A stretch of DNA of 26,694 nt from the IMG/VR virus record IMGVR_UViG_3300010354_014495, positions 1 through 26,694 of that record; one strand, 5' to 3'. The position numbers were made by a program, and so were the translations under genes. Shown here piece by piece: positions 4,532 through 26,694 of this stretch. Below the pieces are notes generated by a model, which saw only the letters and a program-made list of their open reading frames with translations, was not told where the DNA came from and did no database searches. This DNA is from a virus. Positions within the stretch are counted from its first letter, which is position 1; every line of letters begins with the position of its first letter.

Positions 4532-4936
4532 ATGGCATACTCTGAACAAGTGATTGATCATTATGAGAATCCAAGAAATGTTGGCTCTTTTGATAGGACT
4601 GACGACTCCGTTGGTACTGGCATGGTTGGTGCACCTGCTTGTGGCGATGTTATGAAGCTACAGATAAAAGTCGATGATACTACGGGTATAATTACCGATG
4701 CTAAGTTTAAGACTTATGGTTGCGGAAGTGCTATTGCAAGTAGTTCATTGATTACCGAATGGGTCAAAGGCAAAACACTTGACCAAGCAACAACAATCAA
4801 GAATACCCAAATTGCAGAAGAACTTGCACTTCCTCCGGTTAAAATACATTGTTCTATCCTAGCAGAAGATGCTATCAAAGCCGCAGTAGAGGACTATAGA
4901 AAAAAGCATGCTCAAGTATCCTATAACAATAGTTGA
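4532..4936 (+). CDS. iscU: Fe-S cluster assembly scaffold IscU
   Basis: A 134-aa scaffold on which [2Fe-2S] clusters are built before transfer to apo-proteins. The three cluster cysteines are present: C37 in GAPACGDV (with D39), C64 in YGCGSA and C107 in KIHCS, plus H106. The chaperone-recognition motif LPPVK, bound by the Hsp70 HscA in bacteria, is intact at residues 100-104. Length and motif order are those of full IscU (E. coli 128 aa). No IscS, HscA or HscB is in the window, so host cysteine desulfurase would have to supply sulfur. The 3' end overlaps the next gene by 29 bases, and iscA follows it, making an iscU-oxygenase-iscA operon. Confidence 0.95.
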   Translation: MAYSEQVIDHYENPRNVGSFDRTDDSVGTGMVGAPACGDVMKLQIKVDDTTGIITDAKFKTYGCGSAIASSSLITEWVKGKTLDQATTIKNTQIAEELALPPVKIHCSILAEDAIKAAVEDYRKKHAQVSYNNS

Positions 4937-5555
4937 TAACTTTTATGAAGATCCAGATCAAATTAGAGATTTTGCACTAGGATTAAAATATCATAGTCCT
5001 CGCAACCTAGACGAGAGCGAAGGAATATTCCCGGGTAAACGGACAAGCGAATTAGGTCCATCACATCCGGGATTTTTTTATTATTCTGTTAATAAACTCC
5101 TTAGTGTTTTCCATGATTATAAGACACAACAGCTCAGTTGGAATATTTCTAATAAGTTTCAGCTTATTGATTCGTCATTTAAATCCGACTGGATACATTC
5201 CGATGTTGGTTGTGTATTTGCTGCCATAGTTTATCTAACACCCAATGCGCCTTTAGATGCAGGAACCTCTATATATAAAAAAAATAATAACTTTCGAAAA
5301 GATTTGTATGAAAAGTTAAACGAAGAAAAATTTAATTTTTATCGAAATAATGGCGAAGATAAAAGAGATGTAATAAATTCAATGTTTACCGAAACAGTTC
5401 GTGTTAATAATATGTATAATCGACTTCTAGTCTACGAAGCCGAACAGTTCCACGGTGGCAATAACTTTTTTGGATCTACAGATGAGGACTCCCGACTTAC
5501 ACAGATATTTTTTATCAAAGCTATTGATACTAACTCCTATCCATTACAGCGATGA
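4908..5555 (+). CDS. Putative 2OG-Fe(II) oxygenase-like protein (DUF6445-like)
   Basis: A 215-aa protein with the pattern of a cupin-fold iron/2-oxoglutarate oxygenase. The motif WIHSDVG gives an H-x-D pair, the distal histidine is probably in [11 protein letters not shown], and [11 protein letters not shown] provides the arginine after it that usually binds 2-oxoglutarate. The order H-x-D ... H ... R and the length fit small phage-encoded oxygenases such as the DUF6445 type. The substrate is unknown. The ATG at 4908 lies inside iscU (29-base overlap) and no better start follows in frame; the stop overlaps the iscA ATG (ATGA). Being sandwiched between two Fe-S genes may reflect shared iron use, which is only inference. 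Confidence 0.7.
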
Positions 5556-5872
5556 TAACTTTGACAAATAAGGCAGCAGAAAAAATCAAGCAACAACTAC
5601 AGCGCAGGGGAAAAGGGCTGGGTATCAGGATAGGTGTTAAAACTACAGGATGTTCGGGACTTGCCTATGTTTTAGAATACGTAGACAAAATATTTGAAGG
5701 GGATCACATTTTTGACTCCAACGGTGTTCACATATATGTAGATCCCAAAAGTATGGCGTATATTACTGGATTGGAAATGGATTGGATACGTAATGGGCTT
5801 AATGAAGGGTTTGAATTTCGTAATCCAAACGAAAAAGATCGTTGCGGCTGTGGCGAATCTTTCCGAGTATAA
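5552..5872 (+). CDS. iscA: A-type Fe-S carrier protein IscA
   Basis: A 106-aa A-type carrier that accepts Fe-S clusters and passes them to targets. It is collinear with E. coli IscA (107 aa). The conserved cysteines are C34 in [10 protein letters not shown] and C98/C100 in the C-terminal CGCGESF. The GLNEGFEF and [11 protein letters not shown] stretches identify it as IscA rather than ErpA. It starts inside the stop of the preceding gene (ATGA), so expression is coupled to the iscU operon. Possible clients include phage or host Fe-S proteins, and ferredoxin needed by the bilin reductase encoded further downstream. Confidence 0.95.
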
Positions 5873-6503: not shown

Positions 6504-7034
6504 ATGATACGCATCATGAAAACAGCAGTTTTAGCACTGGCACTTTTGGTAGTGTTTATAACTGGACAAACAGTAATCGAGTATAAGCTAGACCGTCTTA
6601 AAGAAGCTAGGACAACAGCAAGCCCGGTTACAGCAGAATTAAGACAGCGACAATTAGACTGTCTTGCCCGTAACATTTACCACGAAGCCGGTTATGAGCC
6701 ATTCGAAGGTAAAGTAGCAGTAGCACAAGTAACACTAAACAGGGTCGAAAGTGGTTTATTCCCTAGCGATGTCTGTAAAGTAGTATATCAAAAAAATGTT
6801 ATCTACGAAAAAGTACTTTGCCAATTTAGTTGGTACTGTGAGCAAGCCAGTATCAAGAAACCTATGAATGGCCCTGTGTACACAGAAAGTATGGAGGTAG
6901 CCAAAAAAGTATTGCTAGAGGGATTTAGATTGCCTTCAGTTAAAGATGCACTTTATTTCCACGGTGATTATATTAATCCAGGGTGGAAACGAGAAAAAGT
7001 TGCTAAAATTGGCCGTCACATTTTTTACAAATAA
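6504..7034 (+). CDS. SleB-type cell wall hydrolase with N-terminal membrane anchor
   Basis: A 176-aa peptidoglycan hydrolase of the Hydrolase_2/SleB family. Residues 6-22 are a hydrophobic segment (signal anchor or signal peptide). The catalytic domain runs from about residue 50: LARNIYHEAGYEPFEGK has the catalytic glutamate E61, followed by VAVAQVTLNRV, then CQFSWYC, and ends with the conserved ALYFHGDYINPGW and IGRHIFY. A lytic transglycosylase-like activity is expected from the family. It is a candidate endolysin: the N-terminal helix would allow Sec-dependent export as in signal-arrest-release endolysins. AAAGGAG sits 8-9 bases before ATG 6504. A three-helix membrane protein follows after 9 bases. 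Confidence 0.88.
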   Translation: MIRIMKTAVLALALLVVFITGQTVIEYKLDRLKEARTTASPVTAELRQRQLDCLARNIYHEAGYEPFEGKVAVAQVTLNRVESGLFPSDVCKVVYQKNVIYEKVLCQFSWYCEQASIKKPMNGPVYTESMEVAKKVLLEGFRLPSVKDALYFHGDYINPGWKREKVAKIGRHIFYK

Positions 7035-7043
7035 GGATAAATC

Positions 7044-7379
7044 ATGAGTTTTGCATCAGTTAAACAATTCGTTAAAGACCTTTTTGATCTCGACTTATGG
7101 GTTAAGAATATCAAGGAGCATGCTCCGCATATCAGTGCAGAAACAGCAGGATGGTGTGCAATAGTGCTATTGCACCTTGCTACAATACCTACAATGGTTG
7201 CTGTGCTTACAGGACTAACGGAAAAGATGCCGCCTGTGGATTTAGTACTATTTTCCTGGGCTGGACTGTTCCTTTTCTTCTTAAAAGCAACAATTCAAAA
7301 GGATCTTCTTAACATTGTAACCATAGGTTTTGGTTTTTTTGTTCAGGCTTGCCTGATGGCTTTGATCATATTCAAATAA
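7044..7379 (+). CDS. Three-helix membrane protein, possible holin
   Basis: A 111-aa protein with an amphipathic N-terminus (VKQFVKDLFDLDLWVKNI) and three likely transmembrane helices: about residues 33-57 (ETAGWCAIVLLHLATIP), 66-83 (DLVLFSWAGLFLFFLK) and 91-110 (IVTIGFGFFVQACLMALIIF). I do not recognise the family. Its size, helix count and position immediately after a wall hydrolase are compatible with a holin or holin-like partner, but that is inferred from context. AAGGATAA precedes ATG 7044. Its stop codon overlaps a late-promoter motif for the next gene. Confidence 0.7.
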   Translation: MSFASVKQFVKDLFDLDLWVKNIKEHAPHISAETAGWCAIVLLHLATIPTMVAVLTGLTEKMPPVDLVLFSWAGLFLFFLKATIQKDLLNIVTIGFGFFVQACLMALIIFK

Positions 7380-7403: not shown

Positions 7404-7991
7404 ATGCCATCAGGATTCGTACAAGATACAAACCAAATTCAGCCAAATTTCTACAGAGTACAAATTGATTGTACAGACTGGAATTCGGCAACCGATACAA
7501 CAGGAGGCGGCGTGTCTCCTAATAGTTCAGATAGCTTTAGCACAGCTAATTTGCCAACTACTGCCGCAGAAGCCACACTAAGAGCTCGCGGAAATATGCG
7601 TTGGAGAAATATTGTCAATCGTCTAACTAACGTTGCCGATTGTCAAATTCTCGACTTAACAGTAGCTGGTGAATCGAACGGCGACGATCAGCCCGATACT
7701 GTTACTTTTACAGTAAAATATGATAGAGATGCTGGTATTATTGCGGCATGCGGAGCAACAACCTTTACACCAACTACAGGCGGCGCAGTTACTATTAATA
7801 CAGTAGCTAAAGCAATACGTTACCTAATTGGACAAGGTGTAGCTGACGCTACAACTGCTACAGTTCGAGTAGCCAGTGCGCTAGGTGACGGCATGGAATC
7901 CGTAACCGTAGCCGCACCTGATACTATTGGTGATATCTATGATGATGTTACTGTGTCTCTAATTGATACAACAACACTAGTTAACTCATAA
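7404..7991 (+). CDS. Hypothetical protein A, paralogue of the following gene
   Basis: A 195-aa acidic, Thr/Ala/Asp-rich protein of unknown function with a beta-rich look and no signal peptide. It shares a pattern with its downstream neighbour: a helix ending R-x-N-x-RW (RARGNMRW), an acidic segment leading to DDQPDTVTFTVKYD, a helix AKAIRYLIGQGV, and a final strand pair ESVTV ... DDVTVSLID. The two therefore look like a tandem duplication that has diverged strongly. A virion-associated or decoration-type protein is one guess, supported only by the late-promoter motif directly upstream. Confidence 0.75.
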   Translation: MPSGFVQDTNQIQPNFYRVQIDCTDWNSATDTTGGGVSPNSSDSFSTANLPTTAAEATLRARGNMRWRNIVNRLTNVADCQILDLTVAGESNGDDQPDTVTFTVKYDRDAGIIAACGATTFTPTTGGAVTINTVAKAIRYLIGQGVADATTATVRVASALGDGMESVTVAAPDTIGDIYDDVTVSLIDTTTLVNS

Positions 7992-8002
7992 TAGGATAGA
8001 AA

Positions 8003-8602
8003 ATGCCACAATATAAAGTTACAATTAACATGGATAATGTTACTTCGGTAGCAACTTATCCATCTATTGATGAACATCCTGATGCTGATGACAGAGCTAA
8101 GGGCGGAGTAAATCCTTTAGAATGGACAGACTTACAGCATCCACCAACTGATCCTGATTATGCTATAGCATTAACAAGAGCAAACCTACGTTGGACAAAA
8201 ATATTCGAGGAACTCTGTAAAGCTGGATCGTATCAATTCTATGACGAATTTGTCGAAGGCATTGACATTGCCGATCATCAACCTTCAAAAGTAAGTTTTG
8301 AAGTCAAATGGAAAATTAATCCTTTACCAGTTTATCAGTATTACCTAGAGACAGCAAATGGAAATTTAACCGGCTCTGACGGCGGAGCAATTGATACTGC
8401 TGAAAGAGCAATCAAGCAAATGGTAACAGACGGTATTTGTGCCGGTGGCGGCAGTGGCTGGTCACGATTTGCCAGAGTTCATAACCACGCTCGTTGGAAC
8501 GACGAAACGGTTACTGTTACAATAATTCAACCGGATATTCCTCCTAAGGTTTTCCAAGATATTACCGTAGAAGAAGTCCCTGAAACATTTCAAATTAATT
8601 AA
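8003..8602 (+). CDS. Hypothetical protein B, paralogue of the preceding gene
   Basis: A 199-aa acidic protein of unknown function. It aligns with the preceding 195-aa protein through LTRANLRW, the acidic run ending HQPSKVSFEVKWK, the helix AERAIKQMVTDGI and the closing strands DETVTVTIIQ and FQDITVEEV. It differs by an N-terminal strand MPQYKVTINMDN and an aromatic insert LPVYQYYLETANG. GGATAG precedes ATG 8003. The final TAA overlaps the next ATG by one base. A paired structural or host-interaction role is plausible but unproven. Confidence 0.75.
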   Translation: MPQYKVTINMDNVTSVATYPSIDEHPDADDRAKGGVNPLEWTDLQHPPTDPDYAIALTRANLRWTKIFEELCKAGSYQFYDEFVEGIDIADHQPSKVSFEVKWKINPLPVYQYYLETANGNLTGSDGGAIDTAERAIKQMVTDGICAGGGSGWSRFARVHNHARWNDETVTVTIIQPDIPPKVFQDITVEEVPETFQIN

Positions 8603-9765
8603 TGTTACTTGCCTGGTTATTACTTCTTACTGGTCTCATCATCTCTGCGGTCGCAATCTATTATTCAGTAATAGGTTTGGCCGCAATATTTTCTGCGGCC
8701 GTGATTCCCATTTATATTATGGGAGGCAGTTTAGAAGTTGCCAAATTAGTCTGTGCTAGCTGGTTAAAAGCCAATTGGGAACGTGCTCCACGTTTCATGA
8801 AGTATTACATGATTACTGCGGTTGCTGTACTCATGTTGATTACCAGCATGGGTATTTTTGGATTTTTATCAAAAGCACACACCGATCAAGGTATTACTAG
8901 TGGTGATGCTACTGCAAAGTTAGCAATCTATGATGAAAAAATTAAAGTAGCAAAGGAAAACATTGATGCAAATCGCAGGGCACTCAAACAAATGGATGAG
9001 GCTGTGGACCAAGTTATGGGTCGAAGTCAAGATGAAAAAGGTGCGGACAAGGCAGTTGCGCTACGTAGAGGCCAGGCCAAAGAACGCACTAGACTACTTT
9101 CTGAAATTGCAGCCGAACAGAAAGTTATTAGCCAACTTAGTGAAGAGCGGGCACCCATTGCCGCAGAAAATCGTAAGATTGAAGCAGAAGTTGGGCCAAT
9201 AAAATATATTGCCAAACTAATTTATGGTGATAACCCAGATACTAATATTTTAGAAAAAGCAGTTACTTGGGTCATCATACTAATTGTTGTAGTATTTGAT
9301 CCATTAGCAGTGATCATGTTGCTAGCCGCCCAAATGACTTTTGGTTGGGCACGAGAACAAAAAGAAAAAGAACCTAAAGAGCAGGAAGTTGCACCTATTC
9401 CTGTAGATGATGGGTTTAAGTTTTTAGCTGATGAAAAGGATATCTATCCAGACGGTCATCCAGTAACTACAACTCAGTTTGTCGAGGGTGGTGAGCATCC
9501 AAGAGATACATATGAACACGAACACACAGAATTAGTTCCAGCAGAAACACCGGCGACTGCCACAGGGGGTGATATAACAGCGCCAGAGCAACAGCAAGTA
9601 CAGGAAGAAACTCCTGTCGAACAATGGAACAAAATGATTGCCGAGGCTGAAAAAGCAGTAGAAGCTGAAATAGCACGAGGCGATGAATTATTAGACGAAG
9701 AGTCAAAAAAAAAGACTTACATGACGAAAGACCCGCAGGGACAGATACAAGTCAAGTCCAGGTAG
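8602..9765 (+). CDS. Membrane protein with long coiled coil; upstream part of a possible -1 frameshift fusion
   Basis: A 387-aa protein. Two hydrophobic segments occupy about residues 3-43 and a third about 70-90 (MITAVAVLMLITSMGIFGFL). A charged coiled coil spans about 105-200, a fourth membrane helix about 218-243 (VIILIVVVFDPLAVIMLLAA), and an acidic Pro/Glu-rich tail reaches the stop. Similar coiled-coil membrane proteins occur in marine T4-like phages; the role is unknown. Near the end the frame reads TCA AAA AAA AAG, an in-frame A-AAA-AAG heptamer (9708-9714) identical to the dnaX slippery site. The -1 frame beyond it stays open to 10055, so a longer 484-residue form is possible. The start shares one base with the previous stop (TAATG). 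Confidence 0.85.
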   Translation: MLLAWLLLLTGLIISAVAIYYSVIGLAAIFSAAVIPIYIMGGSLEVAKLVCASWLKANWERAPRFMKYYMITAVAVLMLITSMGIFGFLSKAHTDQGITSGDATAKLAIYDEKIKVAKENIDANRRALKQMDEAVDQVMGRSQDEKGADKAVALRRGQAKERTRLLSEIAAEQKVISQLSEERAPIAAENRKIEAEVGPIKYIAKLIYGDNPDTNILEKAVTWVIILIVVVFDPLAVIMLLAAQMTFGWAREQKEKEPKEQEVAPIPVDDGFKFLADEKDIYPDGHPVTTTQFVEGGEHPRDTYEHEHTELVPAETPATATGGDITAPEQQQVQEETPVEQWNKMIAEAEKAVEAEIARGDELLDEESKKKTYMTKDPQGQIQVKSR

Positions 9766-10055
9766 GTTATATCCAAAATGCCGAGCAAGAGGATCGTTCG
9801 TTATGGAAAAGGATTTTAGCGAAAAAAGAATACACAGACATCTTTAAACCTATTGACAGATTGTATGTTGAGTATGATAAAGATAAGTTTGCTGGCATAG
9901 TTGTTAACGAAAGTCTTGAACCTGAATTGACATCTTTTATTAAGGATATACAATCAGGTTCAAGAAAATTTAACGATTACACGCCTGATGAAATACAATA
10001 TTTCGCAAGTAGGATTTATGAACTTAGGAAAAATAACAGTAATAACACCGCCTGA
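9687..10055 (+). CDS. Downstream frame of the candidate -1 frameshift (C-terminal extension)
   Basis: An open frame with no ATG or GTG: it is open from 9687, and its first usable initiation codon is a TTG at 9861 with no ribosome-binding site. The translation is nevertheless protein-like well before that point, for example EDRSLWKRILAKKEYTDIF and KPIDRLYVEYDKDKFAGIVV, then a helical end TPDEIQYFASRIYELRK. Entering it by a -1 slip at A-AAA-AAG (9708-9714) would add 113 residues after Lys371 of the upstream protein. Alternatives are a homopolymer assembly error that split one gene, or a separate small gene starting at TTG 9861. It overlaps the next gene start by 38 bases. Confidence 0.6.
   Translation: MIRRRVKKKDLHDERPAGTDTSQVQVGYIQNAEQEDRSLWKRILAKKEYTDIFKPIDRLYVEYDKDKFAGIVVNESLEPELTSFIKDIQSGSRKFNDYTPDEIQYFASRIYELRKNNSNNTA
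9708..9714 (+). promoter_or_regulatory. Slippery heptamer A-AAA-AAG (candidate programmed -1 frameshift site)
   Basis: Nine A residues followed by G, phased as AAA AAA AAG in the zero frame, contain the E. coli dnaX-type heptamer. The purine-rich GAAGAG lies 5 bases upstream. Downstream, only weak pairing is visible: a CCC/GGG hairpin at 9732-9740 and GACTT 9714-9718 with AAGTC 9749-9753. The -1 frame is the one that continues downstream. Confidence 0.55.
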
Positions 10056-10422
10056 CAAGTTGTTTAACTTAACTTTAAGTTACTTACTAGTCAAGCCTAG
10101 TGTCTTAGTTAAACAGCAATTCCAGGCAATCTTAAGTAAAAGCATAGATGATATAAATGTTTTTATTTACGACGAAGAAGAGTCGGATATTAGTTGGTTA
10201 CTAAGTGTTGCCCACCAAGCTGACATAGTCATTATTGATATCGATAATTGCGATACCATAACAAAAACTTTTATAAGTTTTTTACTGGCTCAGCCTAATG
10301 CACACTATATAACTAGTGATGAAATTACACCTTACAATTTAATTTCAAAAAATCGAATATACGATCTGAATCAGATAATTGAACAACTAAACGAAGAAGA
10401 AGAGGATGATGATGAATCATAA
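10018..10422 (+). CDS. Hypothetical acidic protein
   Basis: A 134-aa protein of unknown function. ATG 10018 is chosen over the in-frame ATG 9988 because AGGA (10011-10014) is correctly spaced before it and the sequence then starts MNLGKITVITPPD. The fold looks alternating beta/alpha: IDDINVFIYDE, then ADIVIIDIDNCDTI, then NAHYITSDEITPYNLI. This is reminiscent of a Rossmann-like or receiver-like sheet, but there is no recognisable nucleotide-binding loop. The C-terminus is strongly acidic (EEEEDDDES). It overlaps the preceding frame by 38 bases, and its end overlaps the bS21 gene start, so the three are translationally linked. Confidence 0.7.
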   Translation: MNLGKITVITPPDKLFNLTLSYLLVKPSVLVKQQFQAILSKSIDDINVFIYDEEESDISWLLSVAHQADIVIIDIDNCDTITKTFISFLLAQPNAHYITSDEITPYNLISKNRIYDLNQIIEQLNEEEEDDDES

Positions 10423-19401: not shown

Positions 19402-19677
19402 TTGAATACACCTTTGAATCGATTTATTAGTCTATTCCAAAGTCAAGTGTATGCACAAATTGCCACTCAGTTGAGTAATAATTTATTTCAAAACAGATGT
19501 TCAGCCGCTGATGGTTCGGCAATACCGGGATGTGTAAATCCAACAACAGGAACATTTGCATTAGACGGCAATACTATTACATGGAACAAGCAAAATGACA
19601 AAGTCGTACTAACTGTAGTCGATGCTAAAGGAACAGTTACAACGGTTACAGTTCCTATTGCTAGTTTTGGATTCTAA
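19402..19677 (+). CDS. csgF: CsgF C-terminal part (head domain), separated by an in-frame stop
   Basis: A 91-codon continuation in the same frame as the preceding csgF fragment. FISLFQSQVYAQIATQLSNN matches the CsgF helix (FTQAIQSQILGGLLSNI), and GNTITWNKQNDKVVLTVVDA with GTVTTVTVPIASF matches the closing beta region (LNVTDRKTGQTSTIQVSG). The first possible start is TTG 19402, without a ribosome-binding site and without a signal peptide, so independent export is unlikely; read-through of TAA 19390-19392 would give a complete CsgF of about 159 residues (E. coli 138). It has an insert with two cysteines (NRCSAADGSAIPGC). The csgG ribosome-binding site AAGGAG follows at once. Confidence 0.75.
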   Translation: MNTPLNRFISLFQSQVYAQIATQLSNNLFQNRCSAADGSAIPGCVNPTTGTFALDGNTITWNKQNDKVVLTVVDAKGTVTTVTVPIASFGF

Positions 19678-19686
19678 GGAGCAAAT

Positions 19687-20637
19687 ATGTTTAAGTTATC
19701 AATTATTAGTCTAGCAATGATGGCTCTGGTAGGATGCTCCACTGTCAGACCATGGGGAAATGTAGAAATAAAAGAAGAAGCAAAAGTAAGCGGAACAATT
19801 AATAAAAGTTTTGATGCTGTGCCAGCACCCGCAGGAGCACCTGTTGTTGTTGCAGTATACAGTTTTAAAGATCAAACAGGCCAGCGTAAACCAAGTAACA
19901 CATTAAGTTTATTTTCGACAGCAGTTACACAAGGTGCAGAGGCATATCTAATTAAAAGTTTACAGGAAGTTGGTAATCGTCAATGGTTCACTGTAGTTGA
20001 ACGTGTCGGCCTTGACAACTTATTAAAAGAACGTCAGATGATTCGTCAGACTAGAGAAATTTACGACGGCGACAAAGCTAAGATGTTACCTCCAATGACA
20101 TTGGCAGGTGTTATTTTAGAAGGCGCCATCGTTGATTATAACAGCAATACATTAACAGGCGGTACTGGAGCCAGATACTTAGGTATTGGTCCGTACACAC
20201 AATACACTCAAGACTTAGTTGTTATCAGCTTGCGTCTTGTCAGTGTAACAACAGGAGAAATTTTAACTACTGTTACAGTAGAAAAAAATCTCTTGAGCAC
20301 CAGCGATGGTGTAACAGCATTAAGATTCTTTAACCAAGCCACAAGAGCATTTGAATTTGATAGTAGTCAAACCTTCAACGAACCAGGTAACTATGCATTG
20401 CGTAGTGCTGTTGAAACAGCAATAGTTGAATTGATTAACAAAGGAGAGCGCCAAGGGCTTTGGAAATTCAAGGAGAAGCCGAATGAGCTGGTTCAGAACA
20501 AAACCGAAGTTAAAGGAGCCTCCCAAACACCTTCCTCATCACAGAAACAGTCCGCTGAGTCAAAAACTGTGGGAGGAGACACAACGCCAACAAATGCCGT
20601 TGACGGATCAGGAAAACCAATCCACTCAGCAAAATAA
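19687..20637 (+). CDS. csgG: CsgG-like outer-membrane curli secretion channel (lipoprotein)
   Basis: A 316-aa lipoprotein homologous to the nonameric outer-membrane pore that exports curli subunits. It has a lipobox LVGC with acylated C17, then VVVAVYSFKDQTGQRKPS, VERVGLDNLLKERQMIR, and the diagnostic GGTGARYLGIGPYTQYTQD, with SVTTGEILTTVTVEKNLLS and the RGLW-like RQGLWKFKEK near the end. In the constriction loop the phenylalanine is kept (F76 in LFSTAV) but the E. coli Tyr and Asn positions read Ser and Leu, and the loop is one residue longer. A Ser/Gln/Thr-rich tail of about 40 residues extends beyond the usual C-terminus. CsgG homologues have been noted in T4-like marine phages. Confidence 0.95.
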   Translation: MFKLSIISLAMMALVGCSTVRPWGNVEIKEEAKVSGTINKSFDAVPAPAGAPVVVAVYSFKDQTGQRKPSNTLSLFSTAVTQGAEAYLIKSLQEVGNRQWFTVVERVGLDNLLKERQMIRQTREIYDGDKAKMLPPMTLAGVILEGAIVDYNSNTLTGGTGARYLGIGPYTQYTQDLVVISLRLVSVTTGEILTTVTVEKNLLSTSDGVTALRFFNQATRAFEFDSSQTFNEPGNYALRSAVETAIVELINKGERQGLWKFKEKPNELVQNKTEVKGASQTPSSSQKQSAESKTVGGDTTPTNAVDGSGKPIHSAK

Positions 20638-20645
20638 CAGGAATC

Positions 20646-20670
20646 TAAACGGAGAATAATAATCCGTTTA
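20646..20670 (+). other. Perfect 8-bp inverted repeat containing the ribosome-binding site of the curlin-repeat gene
   Basis: TAAACGGA (20646-20653) pairs with TCCGTTTA (20663-20670) around a 9-base AT loop. The only Shine-Dalgarno-like word, CGGAG (20650-20654), is in the 5' arm and is 22 bases from ATG 20677, too far unless the hairpin brings it closer. No U-run follows. Confidence 0.65.
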
Positions 20671-20676
20671 TTGTAA

Positions 20677-21552
20677 ATGATGAAAAAAACTATAATAACA
20701 CTAATGCTTTTAACAGCTTTTCCAGTCTTTGCTCAAAGCGTAGCTGTTGCACAGCCAAGCCCAAATGCCCCGGTCAATCCTGTACTAACTGTAAGTCCTA
20801 ATGCAGTTAGTGCATTGGGTGCCAATACAACAAACCGAGTGTTTGTCGATCAAAGCGGAGAAAATCCAGATGTAAGTATTACACAAACTGGTGTAGGCAA
20901 TACTGCTGGATCAAACGCAACCTACACAAAGGCAATTACAAGTATTCCTCAAAGACTTAACGGCCTAACACCATCAACACGTAGTTTTACTGTTGATACA
21001 CCATTGTATCTACGCGGTGCAGACCAAGACTTAACCATTGTCCAAACTGGTAATAATAACACTATTAGCCTACGTGCAGAAAATCCAACAACTGCTGGCG
21101 ATGGTGTTAGTATCAATATTCAACAAATTGGCAATAGCAACTTTGTTGATGCCAGTTGCGGTGGCGGCGCCACTGTAGGCGGAACAGCATTAACAACTTG
21201 TAAGGATGCAACTATTAGTTGGAAGTGGACTGGAGACAGCAATGTTATGCAGTTCAAAGGTACAGGAGACAGCCTAAACAGTCAAGTTGAAGTTACAGGT
21301 AACAGTAATGAAATGTACATCGATGCCGTAGGTGACAAACATAGTCAAGTAATTAAAGTTGCTGGAGACTATAATGTATTTAATATCAGTCAAACTGGTA
21401 ACAGTACCAACGGAAGTAGTGTATGGATCGACTTAGCCGGCAACAGCAATAAGTTTGCTATTAGCCAAGCTGGTACACAAGACAATGTTGTACACATTAA
21501 GAGTGTAGCTAGCACAGGTAATTGGAATATCGTTCAACGTACAACACCATAA
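20677..21552 (+). CDS. Curlin-repeat (CsgA/CsgB-like) secreted amyloid-type protein
   Basis: A 291-aa secreted protein. A signal peptide ends ...AFPVFA before QSVAVAQ (start at ATG 20677 or the next ATG 20680). The body has imperfect curlin repeats of the Q-x-G-x-x-N type: VSITQTGVGNT, LTIVQTGNNNTISL, INIQQIGNSNF, VEVTGNSNEMYID, FNISQTGNSTN, WIDLAGNSNKFAISQAG and WNIVQRT. These are spaced every 20-30 residues, as in CsgA/CsgB, where such repeats stack into an amyloid beta-solenoid. A cysteine pair sits between two repeats. It lies directly downstream of csgG and is the obvious export substrate. Whether it polymerises or decorates phage or cell is unknown. Confidence 0.85.
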   Translation: MMKKTIITLMLLTAFPVFAQSVAVAQPSPNAPVNPVLTVSPNAVSALGANTTNRVFVDQSGENPDVSITQTGVGNTAGSNATYTKAITSIPQRLNGLTPSTRSFTVDTPLYLRGADQDLTIVQTGNNNTISLRAENPTTAGDGVSINIQQIGNSNFVDASCGGGATVGGTALTTCKDATISWKWTGDSNVMQFKGTGDSLNSQVEVTGNSNEMYIDAVGDKHSQVIKVAGDYNVFNISQTGNSTNGSSVWIDLAGNSNKFAISQAGTQDNVVHIKSVASTGNWNIVQRTTP

Positions 21553-21561
21553 GGAGTTGCA

Positions 21562-22707
21562 GTGAAAGCGTTGCTAATTGGATTATTGTTAGTAGCAACC
21601 GCAGCTCACGCACAAATAGGTAGCATTACAGAATTTTCAGGTAGTGCTACCATTAAGCGTGGGAAAGAAACTATCACGGCACAGAAGGGTACTGCTGTCG
21701 AACAAAACGATAAAATTGAAACTAAAAACGGTAAATTAAAAATTGTTTTCAAAGACGATACTACCGTTAGTGTAACAGAACACAGCAGCCTGGTCATAGA
21801 TGATTTTGTTTATGATCCAAAAAGCGGTAAAGGTAGTCTTGGCATGAAAGCCACTGGCGGAACTGTTCGTTATGTATCTGGAGCACTAGCCAAAGATCCT
21901 AAACAGGTTAAGATAAACACTCCGACCGCAGCCATTGCTGTTCGTGGTACTGATTTTGTAATGAGTGTAAACGAAACTGGTGGTAGTATGGTTATTCTTA
22001 TGCCCAGTTGTGATTGGGAAACTAGTGCAGTTAAAGGTGTTAGTTGTTCAAGTGGTAAGATTGATGTAGAATCTGGTCCTAACCTTGTTAGCATGGATCG
22101 TCCTTATCAAGCTACTCTAGTTGAAACAGCAGGTCAGCCTCCCACTCCTCCAATTACTGTAAATCTGTTTGGAACGCCAATTGGCAATAATTTACAAATA
22201 GCACCTCCAAGAACTATGGCTGGAGGTAATGTAGTTGTTGCTGCTCGTGCTGCCGCAGCCGCCACAGGTGTAACTAGAGAGGCTCGTAAAACTGACAAAG
22301 AAGATAAAGAAGATAAAGAAGATAAAGAAGATCATAAAGATCATGAAAAACAACACGTAGCATCACGTCAAGCAGAAGATCGCAAAAGCGAAAGCGATGG
22401 AGAAAAGAAAACAACTTTATCTTTAAGTGATAAAGATACAGAAGTGACTATTGCTAGCCAAACGGCTGCTGTTGGAGAAACAGAAAATCCTAACTTGTTT
22501 GCGTTATACGCAGATAAATCACAGACTAAACAAGTTGGTTGGATGTATGAAAGTCTAAGTCCTAATGGACGTAATTATGCTAACGTAACACAAGTAATGG
22601 GTACACAAATACAAGTCACAATAACTCAAGACATGCAGACTGTAAGTCACAATTTTAGTAGCGGTCGAGCTATAGGATCGATTACTATTAATCAAACTTC
22701 GAGGTAA
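21562..22707 (+). CDS. FecR-domain periplasmic/secreted protein
   Basis: A 381-aa protein starting at GTG 21562 with TAAGGAG upstream. A signal peptide ends AAHA before QIGSITEF. Residues about 20-150 form a FecR-type domain: GSATIKRGKETITAQKGTAV, then EQNDKIETKNGKLKIVFKDD and the closing KINTPTAAIAVRGTDFVMSV, a hallmark of FecR-domain proteins (T-P-x-A-x-x-x-V-R-G-T). A four-fold DKE tandem repeat and charged linker (about 245-285) lead to a C-terminal beta region ending RAIGSITINQTSR. In bacteria such proteins are often encoded beside CHASE2 cyclases, as here (one lies 2.4 kb downstream). There is no TonB-linked partner. The stop overlaps the next start region. Confidence 0.85.
   Translation: MKALLIGLLLVATAAHAQIGSITEFSGSATIKRGKETITAQKGTAVEQNDKIETKNGKLKIVFKDDTTVSVTEHSSLVIDDFVYDPKSGKGSLGMKATGGTVRYVSGALAKDPKQVKINTPTAAIAVRGTDFVMSVNETGGSMVILMPSCDWETSAVKGVSCSSGKIDVESGPNLVSMDRPYQATLVETAGQPPTPPITVNLFGTPIGNNLQIAPPRTMAGGNVVVAARAAAAATGVTREARKTDKEDKEDKEDKEDHKDHEKQHVASRQAEDRKSESDGEKKTTLSLSDKDTEVTIASQTAAVGETENPNLFALYADKSQTKQVGWMYESLSPNGRNYANVTQVMGTQIQVTITQDMQTVSHNFSSGRAIGSITINQTSR
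22294..22329 (+). repeat. Four tandem 9-bp repeats in the FecR-domain gene
   Basis: GACAAAGAA once and GATAAAGAA three times, encoding Asp-Lys-Glu four times, followed by a degenerate GATCATAAA copy. This likely arose by replication slippage and lengthens a charged linker in multiples of three residues. Confidence 0.9.
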
Positions 22708-22712
22708 TGTAT

Positions 22713-24551
22713 ATGAAAAAAATACTTCTTAGTTTATTATTTTTATGTTCTAATGCATTTGGCGCCATTACTGACGGCAAATTTGGTATCAATCAAATTT
22801 TTGATGTCCAGTATTATTGGAGTGGTAATACTTTAAACGCCAGTAACTTTATTGCTCCTTATAATAAAAACTTTCAAACAGTAACAGTTACCGCAGGACA
22901 ATACTTTCAATTTTTTAACAGCACAACTAATCCAGGCAAGTACGGTTTGAAGTTAATGAACAGCAACGGCACACAGCATAGCATTGTTCACGACTATGGA
23001 GATATTACAGCTTTAGGTAATGGAGCTATCTTTTACATCGGCAGCGGATTTTTTGGTAACGTTATTACTACAGCACAAGGATACAGTTACGGAGCAAGTG
23101 CCACATTCACTAATATGAATACAAGTCCTACTAGTAGTGATTTTAACAATTATACCTTTGCTAGCTCGACTCCATTGTCCTCAGGACAAACAGCACAACC
23201 AGCTGCTCCTACAGTCAATTGGCAAGTAATTAGAACTAACAGTAACCCAGTAGTTATTAGCAATATCTATCCTACTAGCTATAACAGTCCAAACGGAGAA
23301 GGCGCCGCTAATGCATTTGACGGTAATGTTAATACAAAATATCTAAACTTTGATAAAAAGAATGCAGGTGTCACCGTTAAACTAAGTCAAGGTCGTGTTG
23401 TTCAAAAGTTTACTATTACTACTGCTAACGACTTTAGCGGTCGTGATCCTACAAGTTATAAGTTGTATGGTAGTAATGACGGCGTTAATTGGACACTGAT
23501 AAAACAAGACAGTATAAGCCTTAGTGAAAATAGATTCTGGACCAGCCCGGAAATTGCAGTAGCTAACACTAATGCCTACGTCTATTATTTTATTCTATTT
23601 CCAACTACTAAATCTGGAGACGGCTGTGGATTAAACTGCGACAGTATGCAGATAGCAGAAGTAACTTATTATTATGATCTCAACGACGGTGTCACCAGCA
23701 CGGACACAGGCAGCGGAGGAACTCCAGCCAACCCAGGACAAGCTGGTAGTGTATGTAGTGATTGTTTTTCAAGTAACATCACTGCCGCTCAACAGGCATT
23801 ATTAGATGCTGCTCGTGCAAGAAGAAATGCTATCTCACTCGGAAATCATATTAGAATTAGTGCGGATGGTTCTAGTCCTAATATTACCGTTGAACAAATA
23901 GGTAGCTATAACACAATACAAGGACTAAGCGGAGCAGGCACATATGCTACAGTCAATGGTTTCGGTAATACTGTTAATATCAAACAAGGTGATACTTTAT
24001 CTGGTAAAAATCTTATTGAAATGGGTGTCCAAGGTAATGGCAATGTGGTCAATATTAGCCAAGCAAGAAATACTACTACTGGGGCAGTTGACGGTGCAGA
24101 AAGCGGTGGGCACATAGTACGCCTTTCAGTCACAGGCAATAGTGCAACTTATAATTTAAGACAAGGCAACGACGGTGGCCCAAACAGCGGACATTTTTTA
24201 AACTTTACTATAAATGGCGGCGGTGGAACTCATAATGTAACACAGGCTAATAATGGAGAAAAATTAGCATTTGTTAGCATTACCGGAAACTCTAATAACG
24301 AAACTATTGTGCAAAGCGGCACCGGAAATCATTTCTTAGATCTTACATTATCGGGCAATGGTAATAGTGCTAACATAACACAAACTGGCAGCGGCAGTCA
24401 CAAAGCCACTATTAATTTGGTGAATGCAGGAGGCCCAAGCTCAGCCACAGTTATTCAACAGGGTAGCACAAATCAAATTTATAGCATAACTCAGCAATGC
24501 GCTAATCTGTCAGGGTGCTCGGTGAGCGTAACGCAGGGTAACGGTCCTTAA
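22713..24551 (+). CDS. Secreted discoidin-like (F5/8 type C) and curlin-repeat protein
   Basis: A 612-aa secreted protein. ATG 22713 (MKKILLSLLFLCSNAFG) is preferred over ATG 22707 because GAGG is 8 bases upstream. After the signal peptide comes an aromatic-rich beta domain (about 20-150). Next is a discoidin-like carbohydrate-binding domain (about 190-325) with GEGAANAFDGNVNTKYLNF and SYKLYGSNDGVNWTLI. A linker with CSDC follows, and from about 385 a long array of curlin-type units such as ITVEQIGSYNT, VNIKQGDT, VNISQARN, YNLRQGND, ANITQTGSGS and VSVTQGNGP. It combines a binding head with an amyloid-type stalk. It probably exits through CsgG; a fibre-tip adhesin or nucleator role is inference. 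Confidence 0.85.
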   Translation: MKKILLSLLFLCSNAFGAITDGKFGINQIFDVQYYWSGNTLNASNFIAPYNKNFQTVTVTAGQYFQFFNSTTNPGKYGLKLMNSNGTQHSIVHDYGDITALGNGAIFYIGSGFFGNVITTAQGYSYGASATFTNMNTSPTSSDFNNYTFASSTPLSSGQTAQPAAPTVNWQVIRTNSNPVVISNIYPTSYNSPNGEGAANAFDGNVNTKYLNFDKKNAGVTVKLSQGRVVQKFTITTANDFSGRDPTSYKLYGSNDGVNWTLIKQDSISLSENRFWTSPEIAVANTNAYVYYFILFPTTKSGDGCGLNCDSMQIAEVTYYYDLNDGVTSTDTGSGGTPANPGQAGSVCSDCFSSNITAAQQALLDAARARRNAISLGNHIRISADGSSPNITVEQIGSYNTIQGLSGAGTYATVNGFGNTVNIKQGDTLSGKNLIEMGVQGNGNVVNISQARNTTTGAVDGAESGGHIVRLSVTGNSATYNLRQGNDGGPNSGHFLNFTINGGGGTHNVTQANNGEKLAFVSITGNSNNETIVQSGTGNHFLDLTLSGNGNSANITQTGSGSHKATINLVNAGGPSSATVIQQGSTNQIYSITQQCANLSGCSVSVTQGNGP

Positions 24552-24617: not shown

Positions 24618-25055
24618 ATGGCACAAGAATTTTTAGTTGAAACTTTTGTCTGGCAACCCGGACTTAAGAAAAAAGAACATAGATTTGATACTCTGGATGC
24701 AGCAAAAGCATTTGCAGACGAAGAATCACCACACTTCCATATCATCAAAGTATGGAATGAATCTGGTAAGAATGTTTATACAAAAAGAACAGCGCAGACG
24801 CTGGCCCAGGATCCTGACGGAAGTCATTCTGAATGGCTTGTTGCCGCAAAGAACTTTGCACAAAAGGGTGAGTTAAATCCACGATTCATTAATGATGCTG
24901 CTACTCTAGCAAAAATACAAGCATCGGCACCTAATCCAGGAAATGCACCTGCTCCTATGGGCAACGTAACTCCAATGCCACCGGAGCCAAATCTAAATGT
25001 TCCACTAGCACAGGGCGGAGAGCCGTTTCCTGTACCAGATCAAATGCCTGAATAA
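24618..25055 (+). CDS. Hypothetical protein with Pro-rich tail
   Basis: A 145-aa protein of unknown function. The N-terminal half is compact alpha/beta: FLVETFVWQPGLKKKEHRFD, then TLDAAKAFADEESPHFHIIKVW and NESGKNVYTKRTAQ. A middle segment SEWLVAAKNFAQKGELNPRF is helical, and the last 45 residues are Pro/Asn/Ala-rich (for example NPGNAPAPMGNVTPMPPEP). It has no signal peptide, so it is probably cytoplasmic or packaged. Its stop TAA shares one base with the cyclase ATG (TAATG), so the two are translationally coupled despite no recognisable link. It has its own late-promoter motif. Confidence 0.75.
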   Translation: MAQEFLVETFVWQPGLKKKEHRFDTLDAAKAFADEESPHFHIIKVWNESGKNVYTKRTAQTLAQDPDGSHSEWLVAAKNFAQKGELNPRFINDAATLAKIQASAPNPGNAPAPMGNVTPMPPEPNLNVPLAQGGEPFPVPDQMPE

Positions 25056-26694
25056 TGAAAAGAGTTTTACTAAGTCCTTGGACAGCATTAGTAACGTTAA
25101 CTATTGTTGTCCTGGTTAGATTCTTTGATCCCTCATTTGTAGAAAGCGTAAGGCTAAGATATTTTGATCAGTTAATTATTGGACAGCCTTCGGCTACTAT
25201 ACCTGTTCATACAGTCAATATCGACGAAGAGGCTTTAGACAAATACGGACAGTTTCCATTTCCTAGAGATACTTATGCACGTATCATAAAAGACCTATAC
25301 GATAGGAACGCAGGCTTAGTTGTATTCAATATCCTTATGCCTGAACAAGATCGTTTTGGCGGAGATGCTGCATTAGCTAAAACTCTTGAAAAACATCCTA
25401 CCATACTTCCTCAGGTAGCCAGTACTAAAGGTAAGAACAAAACATTTGGATCACCAGTACAAGTTGTTGGAAGTGATCCTCAAGGAAACTTTGTAGAATA
25501 TCCTGGTATTATTGCCAACGTGCCCGTGTTAGAAGAACGTGCCGCCGGTGTCGGTGTTGTAAACACATTTCCAGAAATAGACGGTGTAGTTCGTCGTATG
25601 CCATTGTTAATTGCTGCTCCAGATAGTTATCTACTGCCTTTAGACCAGCAACAAATAACTGTATATCCTTCTATTAGTTTAGAAACTATACGTGTAGGAG
25701 TAGGCGACACTAAGATACAAGTTAAAATAGGAGACCAAGGAGTCGAAGCACTCCGTGTTCCTAAACTCAATAGAATTAATGTAGACCCTTTAAGTAGGAC
25801 TTGGATTGATTGGAGTCAAACTCCTACTGAACACAGCTTGGCAAAACTACCTAAAGATTTTAAAGGTGAAATAGTCATTGTTGGTCTGAGCGCCGCTGGA
25901 CTAGTACAGCCAGTAGCTACTGCTAAAGGCGAAGTGTGGCCGCAGTATATGCAGGCATCATTAATTGGCACATTACTAAACGGCCGTGCCATACAACGTC
26001 CGGGACATGCAGATGACTACGAAATTGTAGCTATATTAGCAGTAGGTTTGTTGTTAATCTTTTTAATGAGGTGGACTTATGTCGGCATCGTTGCGACTGT
26101 TATTGCAATTGGCAGTATTATTGCTGGTAGCATGTATTCATACAGCAATTTTCTATTTTTATACGACGCAACTGCCCCAGCAGTTGGCTTGGGATTGGTC
26201 GCTTTGCACGCCTACATGGTCAAATTCGTATCAGAGTTCTTACAAAAACAACAGATCAGAAAACAGTTCCAAAGTTACCTTAGCCCCGATCTAGTTGCTA
26301 AATTAATCAAAGATCCTAGTCTACTAAAGTTAGGCGGCGAAGAAAAAGAATTAAGTATCATGTTCACTGATGTAAGAGGATTTACATCAATATCTGAACA
26401 CTATGGCAAGGATGTGCAGGGTCTAACTAGTATTATGAATCGTTACATGACTGCCATGACACGTACTATTTTAGAAACAGGCGGCACACTAGACAAGTAC
26501 ATTGGTGACGCACAGATGGCTTTCTGGAATGCACCATTAGATGAAACAAAGCATTGTAAAGATGCTGTTCGAGCCGGATTAGAAATGTTAGGGAGTTTAG
26601 ATGCGTTTAATGCAAGTATTAGAGAAGAAGGTGTTCCACCCTTTGGCATGGGTATTGGTATCAACACTGGCGTTGTTGTTGTTGGTAACATGGG
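25055..26694 (+). CDS. CHASE2-domain class III adenylate cyclase (3' truncated by window end)
   Basis: An open frame of 546 codons running off the window. It starts MKRVLLSPWTALVTLTIVVL with a first membrane helix. A CHASE2 extracytoplasmic sensor domain follows (about 25-310; TVNIDEEALDKYGQFPFPRD and GVGVVNTFPEIDGVVRRMPL are typical). Three further membrane helices (about 318-395) connect to a class III cyclase domain. The cyclase shows MFTDVRGFTSISE (metal Asp 439), LDKYIGDAQMAFWNAP (Lys 481, Asp 485) and GMGIGINTGVVVVGNMG; the last catalytic Asn/Arg region lies beyond the window. The Lys/Asp pattern favours ATP over GTP. It would produce cAMP in response to an envelope signal. No ribosome-binding site is obvious; it is coupled by TAATG to the gene before. 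Confidence 0.93.
   Translation, partial: MKRVLLSPWTALVTLTIVVLVRFFDPSFVESVRLRYFDQLIIGQPSATIPVHTVNIDEEALDKYGQFPFPRDTYARIIKDLYDRNAGLVVFNILMPEQDRFGGDAALAKTLEKHPTILPQVASTKGKNKTFGSPVQVVGSDPQGNFVEYPGIIANVPVLEERAAGVGVVNTFPEIDGVVRRMPLLIAAPDSYLLPLDQQQITVYPSISLETIRVGVGDTKIQVKIGDQGVEALRVPKLNRINVDPLSRTWIDWSQTPTEHSLAKLPKDFKGEIVIVGLSAAGLVQPVATAKGEVWPQYMQASLIGTLLNGRAIQRPGHADDYEIVAILAVGLLLIFLMRWTYVGIVATVIAIGSIIAGSMYSYSNFLFLYDATAPAVGLGLVALHAYMVKFVSEFLQKQQIRKQFQSYLSPDLVAKLIKDPSLLKLGGEEKELSIMFTDVRGFTSISEHYGKDVQGLTSIMNRYMTAMTRTILETGGTLDKYIGDAQMAFWNAPLDETKHCKDAVRAGLEMLGSLDAFNASIREEGVPPFGMGIGINTGVVVVGNM

Follow-up and report, generated by a model that had tools for sequence, protein, structure and literature searches.

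Among the closest described systems, Shigella spa13 resembles the phage gene analyzed here in that its C-terminal extension is reached by slippage (112 aa there, 113 aa here) and ends over the start of the next gene (PMC5009743). However, spa13 is a type III secretion gene for an unrelated protein, and its slippage was demonstrated experimentally, whereas that of the phage gene is proposed from sequence. The phage family further differs from spa13 in that its unslipped tail is itself conserved and its default frame swaps among lineages. The tssM gene of Citrobacter rodentium, like the phage gene, encodes an inner-membrane protein with two C-terminal length variants that arise through an A-run (11 A's in tssM), and both forms and their ratio are required (PMC4256274). 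Unlike the phage gene, tssM is a bacterial type VI secretion gene for a different protein, and it has not been described as a deep two-tail system in which selection acts on both tails. Thermus thermophilus dnaX shares with the phage gene an A9 run and nearby stops in the out-of-frame readings, and it shows a transcript ladder (PMC1088944, PMC5009743); its alternative product, however, is a truncation and not a second conserved tail. Lambda gpG/gpGT provides a phage gene with a short and an extended product (PMC5009743). In contrast to this pair, the present gene encodes an apparent membrane protein of 387 aa with long predicted helices and lies beside a cell-wall hydrolase. The A_AAA_AAG heptamer of E. 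coli dnaX/IS911 recurs identically and in frame in the phage genes that are termed type i below. Known E. coli cases of the dnaX/IS911 type have stimulators, namely a Shine-Dalgarno (SD)-like element and a stem-loop. Such stimulators were not found here, and the invariant of the phage family is A9, not the heptamer. We know of no phage precedent for two-tail transcriptional slippage at A9, and none was found in a limited literature search.

The window, that is, the whole stretch of viral DNA that was analyzed (26,694 nt), carries the following features of the slippage gene.

8602-9765, plus strand: ORF of 387 aa, with the 0-frame stop TAG at 9763-9765 (from sequence)
8602-9714, plus strand: shared N-terminal part of 371 aa (from AlphaFold2 and conservation)
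9705-9713, plus strand: A9 tract with a putative slippage role, followed by G9714
9708-9714, plus strand: in-frame heptamer A_AAA_AAG inside the slip site
9714-10055, plus strand: -1-frame extension of 113 aa plus stop, the end of the 484-aa product (from sequence, relatives and dN/dS)
9715-9765, plus strand: 0-frame tail TYMTKDPQGQIQVKSR plus stop, the end of the 387-aa product, predicted to form a small beta-hairpin
9716-9724, plus strand: third (+1) frame CTT ACA TGA, closed immediately (from sequence)
9768-9806, plus strand: motif Y-I-Q-N-A-E-Q-x5-W, extension residues 19-31, conserved in the long tail
9831-10040, plus strand: helical C-terminal domain, extension residues ~40-109 (from AlphaFold2)

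Positions 9703-9717 read TCA AAA AAA AAG ACT in the 0 frame, and apart from the A9 tract no stretch of A or T in the window reaches nine. A preliminary description of this DNA had reported AAA AAA AAG in a 387-aa frame that stops soon afterwards, together with a -1 frame that is open from 9687 to 10055 and devoid of ATG and GTG. Both observations hold at these coordinates; the -1 frame stays open between 9687 and its stop at 10053-10055, and its earliest potential start codon is a TTG at 9861. The same description had envisaged two products of 387 and 484 aa, the longer one with a charged extension. Conservation and the selection seen in each frame lend this proposal strong support, and the two isoforms very probably exist.

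The two-tail family is a large group of uncultured phages, mostly from freshwater. An IMG/VR protein search with the window's protein returned at least 599 related stretches, from which 80 loci were kept for close comparison. Most of the 80 loci contain the same heptamer 55-61 nt ahead of the 0-frame stop, and the -1 frame that follows encodes a homologue of the window's extension. The protein search and further pattern scans were pooled into a comparison of 228 distinct homologous genes. In 132 of the 228, two frames 3' of an A-run each encode an alternative C-terminal tail, and thus the two-frame layout that the preliminary description had suggested seeking in homologues recurs far beyond chance; every type-i and type-ii gene stems from a metagenome assembly, and counts of distinct genes do not equal counts of independent events. 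When other run lengths were permitted in a pattern scan, 104 of 105 public stretches still had exactly A9 (65 distinct contexts). The base right after the run is G in 130 of the 132 two-tail genes.

The two-tail genes fall into two types. In type i (n = 112, including the window), frame 0 leads to a short hairpin-like tail, and the -1 frame leads to a long tail that carries YxQNxEQ..W, often together with the helical domain. The -1 product spans ~103-115 aa, or ~38-48 aa when the helical domain is missing, as in relatives with a short (~40-aa) extension. Residues Y19, Q21, N22, E24, Q25 and W31 of the extension are invariant in alignment A1 (53 sequences). In type ii (n = 20; 18 with A9 and two with A10), frame 0 leads to the long tail and the +1 frame to the hairpin tail, which reads ..TWMERxGxQQ.., while the -1 frame stops at once. 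The run of type-ii genes has the phase NNN AAA AAA AAA G, in which A_AAA_AAG is not in frame. Many of these genes first resembled single-ORF fusions, yet they hold exactly nine A's. One further locus, L297, combines the shifted phase (NNN AAA AAA AAA G) with the tail order of type i. The third frame reaches a stop within five codons in each of the 132 two-tail genes, compared with 36% at random out-of-frame positions, and amino-acid constraints account for part of this closure. In a core-domain tree, built by FastTree with local supports only, the two types are interleaved; judged by the starred branches, the type-ii label must have changed eight times or more, a pattern to which core-tail recombination could add.

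Selection was compared between frames by dN/dS. Given as Nei-Gojobori sums over non-independent pairs, in which the contrast between frames is evidence and the exact values are not, dN/dS between the run and the 0-frame stop of type-i genes is ~0.19-0.213 in frame 0 and ~1.0 (1.02) in the -1 frame, and just past that stop it is 0.24 in the -1 frame; in the type-ii overlap, it is 0.225 in the hairpin (+1, non-default) frame and 0.93 in the long default frame. Because the values are low in the respective frames, the unslipped and slipped tails of type i are each maintained, and the type-ii contrast likewise places the non-default hairpin under selection. Within the overlap, purifying selection is confined to the hairpin frame in both types, and in type i it passes to the -1 frame directly past the 0-frame stop.

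How is the second tail produced? We propose that RNA polymerase slips on the exact A9 tract during transcription and that this slippage would give rise to two C-terminal isoforms of an inner-membrane coiled-coil protein. Unslipped mRNA would encode the 387-aa form with its hairpin-like tail, and mRNA with one added A would encode the 484-aa form (371 + 113 aa), which ends in the YxQNxEQ..W motif and the small helical domain. Other insertions or deletions would bring the reading into the third frame, where a stop follows at once. A ribosomal -1 slip and a single added A in the mRNA yield an identical peptide, ..SKKKDLHD... Programmed slippage on A9, most likely by RNA polymerase, is the probable source of the two isoforms; we infer the polymerase to be the slipping enzyme, as distinct from the points that the sequences display directly.

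Transcriptional slippage is favored because the A9 tract survives changes of phase and heptamer, because no stimulator was found and because long runs are avoided elsewhere. The run lies in the other phase in type-ii genes and in L297, and therefore A9, rather than A_AAA_AAG, is the invariant. Programmed transcriptional slippage is marked by a homopolymer of about nine or more A/T within the gene and of conserved length, by the avoidance of such runs in the same genomes and, as its defining sign, by mRNAs of heterogeneous length at the run; the first two can be read from sequence. The run is exactly nine A's long in 126 of the 132 two-tail genes, whatever its phase. A TCA Ser codon, combined with AAG, contributes the ninth A at 104 of 114 canonical sites, while TCA makes up 22% of the Ser codons elsewhere in the gene. 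Long runs are depleted from the other genes of the same contigs, with 16 A8 runs observed against 98 expected (0.16), 24 T7 runs against 62 (0.39) and one T8 run against 21 (0.05). This avoidance fits the limits of E. coli RNA polymerase, which is reported not to slip detectably with fewer than eight A's or seven T's (PMC6260861), although slippage in replication or sliding by ribosomes can also cause long runs to be avoided. As far as sequence comparison can assign it, the phage gene is placed in the transcriptional slippage class by the length of the run, its independence of phase and the avoidance of such runs elsewhere. In the A10 genes L258 and L311, the frame runs directly into the long tail. 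Against transcriptional slippage, E. coli RNA polymerase is reported to make no deletions on poly(A) (PMC6260861), and the type-ii hairpin would therefore need an insertion of two A's or a polymerase that behaves differently. A search of eight large contigs for a phage multisubunit RNA polymerase (PF00562, multisubunit enzymes only) found none, and thus any slippage during transcription would likely be due to the polymerase of the host.

The preliminary description had put forward a dnaX-type -1 shift on A_AAA_AAG as its main reading and transcriptional slippage on nine A's as an alternative. The dnaX-type shift is possible for the window's own gene. It is not the best account of the family, because sister lineages keep A9 while they change its phase, lose A_AAA_AAG and carry the alternative tail in the +1 frame; the alternative of transcriptional slippage fits better. 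In its full form, the ribosomal explanation invokes a programmed -1 frameshift on A_AAA_AAG, as in dnaX/IS911, with an overlapping A_AAA_AAA one codon earlier, and assumes that type-ii genes use another mechanism or have lost the function. The window and nearly every canonical gene have the heptamer in frame, and few heptamers are as prone to shifting in E. coli (PMC5009743, PMC4066793). The third Lys codon is AAG in 112 of 114 canonical sites, against 35% AAG among Lys codons, a bias that a ribosomal A_AAA_AAG signal would predict. AAG may instead hold the run at nine, since the following codon begins with A. In addition, a few canonical genes that have TCT, and hence only A8, retain the two-frame layout.

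However, a ribosomal shift leaves both the constant ninth A and the conserved +1 hairpin of type ii unexplained, and a -1 shift cannot reach that hairpin. In-frame A_AAA_AAG is not clearly more avoided in other genes than the heptamer in other phases. Stimulator-free shift-prone motifs in E. coli reach only 2-10x a background of ~0.055% (PMC4066793), which counts against a ribosomal shift at a site with no stimulator nearby. No SD-like element was found upstream of the site, where SD duplex energies lie within the background, and no downstream stem-loop was detected in windows right after the site (mean z ~0, with a model that covers structures other than pseudoknots). A weak structure signal (z ~-1) 40-130 nt downstream was rejected as too distant and barely above windows elsewhere in the gene. 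A UACAU/AUGUA pairing was also discarded; it lies within conserved Tyr-Met and Tyr-Val codons and shows no convincing compensatory change by eye. We therefore regard transcriptional slippage at A9 as the probable mechanism and dnaX-type ribosomal frameshifting as rather unlikely, and the two may act jointly in type-i genes.

E. coli ribosomes are known to slide on homopolymeric A, and sliding along the poly(A)/poly(Lys) stretch would give access to every frame, but this explanation is very improbable here: A11 gives a robust truncated product in vitro whereas A9 and A10 give little (PMC4363877), and the phage run is nearly always nine. The -1 region can scarcely be a separate downstream gene with its own start, such as the TTG at 9861, since conservation begins at the 0-frame stop, upstream of that codon, and single-ORF homologues have the same region fused. 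Independent initiation is also unlikely given the scarcity of start codons, in that 110 of 112 relatives have no ATG, GTG or TTG in the -1 frame between the slip site and the motif and 101 of 112 lack a start codon anywhere upstream within the open -1 frame. Homopolymers are error-prone and all sequences come from metagenome assemblies, but the assembly or sequencing error that the preliminary description had allowed for, or a decayed gene, is refuted by exactly nine A's in more than 100 distinct genes from many samples, by purifying selection in both frames and by the rarity of A10 single-ORF variants.

On balance, we lean toward regarding this family as a widespread, conserved case of programmed transcriptional slippage in dsDNA phages, with an exact A9 tract, two selected tails, a closed third frame and a default frame that has switched repeatedly. 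With more than 100 natural versions of a single slippage site, set in two phases around a shared A9 core, the family allows a direct test of a long-standing ambiguity, namely whether the polymerase slips or the ribosome shifts frame where a site is rich in A. It also points to a very common, uncharacterized phage membrane protein with both tail forms under selection, and it cautions that the conserved long tail of two-tail phages escapes gene callers.

What kind of protein carries these tails? AlphaFold2 predicts helices at residues 2-32, 34-57, 64-97, 100-141, 145-208 and 212-256 (mean pLDDT 72.6), followed by a low-confidence, predicted cytosolic linker (~257-337) and a helix at 338-363. Residues ~100-208 form a two-helix coiled-coil hairpin; the three long N-terminal helices include hydrophobic segments, and helix 212-256 is hydrophobic. 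The N-terminal part probably has four transmembrane segments, with a topology deduced from the hydrophobic segments. In the unslipped tail, strands are predicted at 372-376 and 382-386 with low-confidence residues. The extension has a low-confidence start and helices at residues 44-57, 70-81 and 91-109 (pLDDT ~72-90 by block). Searches of Pfam, PHROG and NCBIfam returned only sub-threshold matches for the gene product and its extension. Fold searches of the PDB yielded no confident or informative match, with a best Z of 4.5 over 60 residues for the extension and only generic coiled coils (Z ~10) for the N-terminal part. The extension as the sole query against viral_contigs and phage records found nothing, probably because single-sequence patterns are too specific, and no second copies of the extension domain beyond the gene itself were found in eight large contigs. 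Both proteins may belong to one membrane complex in which their ratio matters, with the long tail recruiting a cytosolic partner. The gene could thus provide a membrane anchor of mixed oligomers with or without the partner-recruiting tail or, given its neighbors, a lysis regulator. A lambda-type tail assembly chaperone (gpG/gpGT), which is a small soluble protein whose gene directly precedes the tape-measure gene, was rejected on the basis of neighbors and protein type, and no tape-measure gene was recognized among the neighbors examined.

The N-terminal core is conserved in hundreds of viral contigs and in several cultured phages, and the slippage gene was found on contigs of up to 383 kb. 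The core lacks the slip site and the extension in Pelagibacter phage Mosig, Xanthomonas XacN1, Stenotrophomonas RAS14, Salicola SCTP-2, Microcystis Mel-JY01 and Flavobacterium immuto. Single-ORF relatives hold the YxQNxEQ..W motif in one frame with the core, and contigs binned to marine bacteria hold the core and a YVQNEEQ motif in a single frame. In L412, L415 and L422, which have no A-run, the hairpin-like and YxQNxEQ tails are joined in one frame (WMEHDEQGNQIKRIKENYQQNAEQ), perhaps as an ancestral or mended state. A10 variants that read into the long tail (L258:4203, L210:4356 and L059:5232) may reflect lineages in which this state is fixed, phase variation or faulty assembly. The 86-kb contig IMGVR_UViG_3300027679_000366 bears two copies of the gene on opposite strands (L029 and L080), one with A9 and one with A8. 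In three loci from marine-bacteria bins (L349, L351 and L353) and three basal viral homologues (L215, L216 and L235), A9 lies at other positions of a variable tail, and the -1 frame stops immediately.

The slippage gene of the window is flanked by the following genes.

6504-7034, plus strand: SleB-like cell-wall hydrolase (Hydrolase_2; PF07486, E 3.5e-24)
7044-7379, plus strand: hydrophobic protein of 111 aa, syntenic
7404-7991 and 8003-8602: two adjacent similar proteins of 195 and 199 aa, directly upstream of the slippage gene
10021-10422, plus strand: following gene of 133 aa, which begins at ATG 10021 and shares its first 35 nt with the end of the -1 frame

The SleB-like hydrolase, probably an endolysin, is found near 89 of 114 canonical and 24 of 26 fused-type genes. 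The 111-aa hydrophobic protein accompanies 92 of 114 canonical and 25 of 26 fused-type genes; it has no family match in Pfam, PHROG or NCBIfam, and at a guess it could be a holin. A homologue of the 133-aa gene lies near 102 of 114 canonical genes, and its product has no convincing match in the same three databases. The 195- and 199-aa proteins, for which there are no family matches, occur near type-i genes and not near fused-type genes. S21 and an exoribonuclease-like protein are also among the neighbors of slippage genes.

The window carries further cargo away from the slippage gene. Positions 19402-24551 hold a curli (type VIII secretion) cluster with a CsgF-like protein, CsgG, a curlin-repeat protein, a FecR-domain protein and an F5/8-type-C protein with curlin-like repeats. 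This cluster is unusual phage cargo, and parts of it have homologues in up to three related phage loci. A protein with CHASE2 and adenylate/guanylate cyclase catalytic domains (25055-26692) runs off the contig end. A NifU/IscU-like scaffold, a DUF6445 protein that overlaps its end and an IscA-like Fe-S protein stand in a row at 4532-5872, and the window also encodes a heme oxygenase (14063) and, on the minus strand, a fatty acid desaturase (17219).
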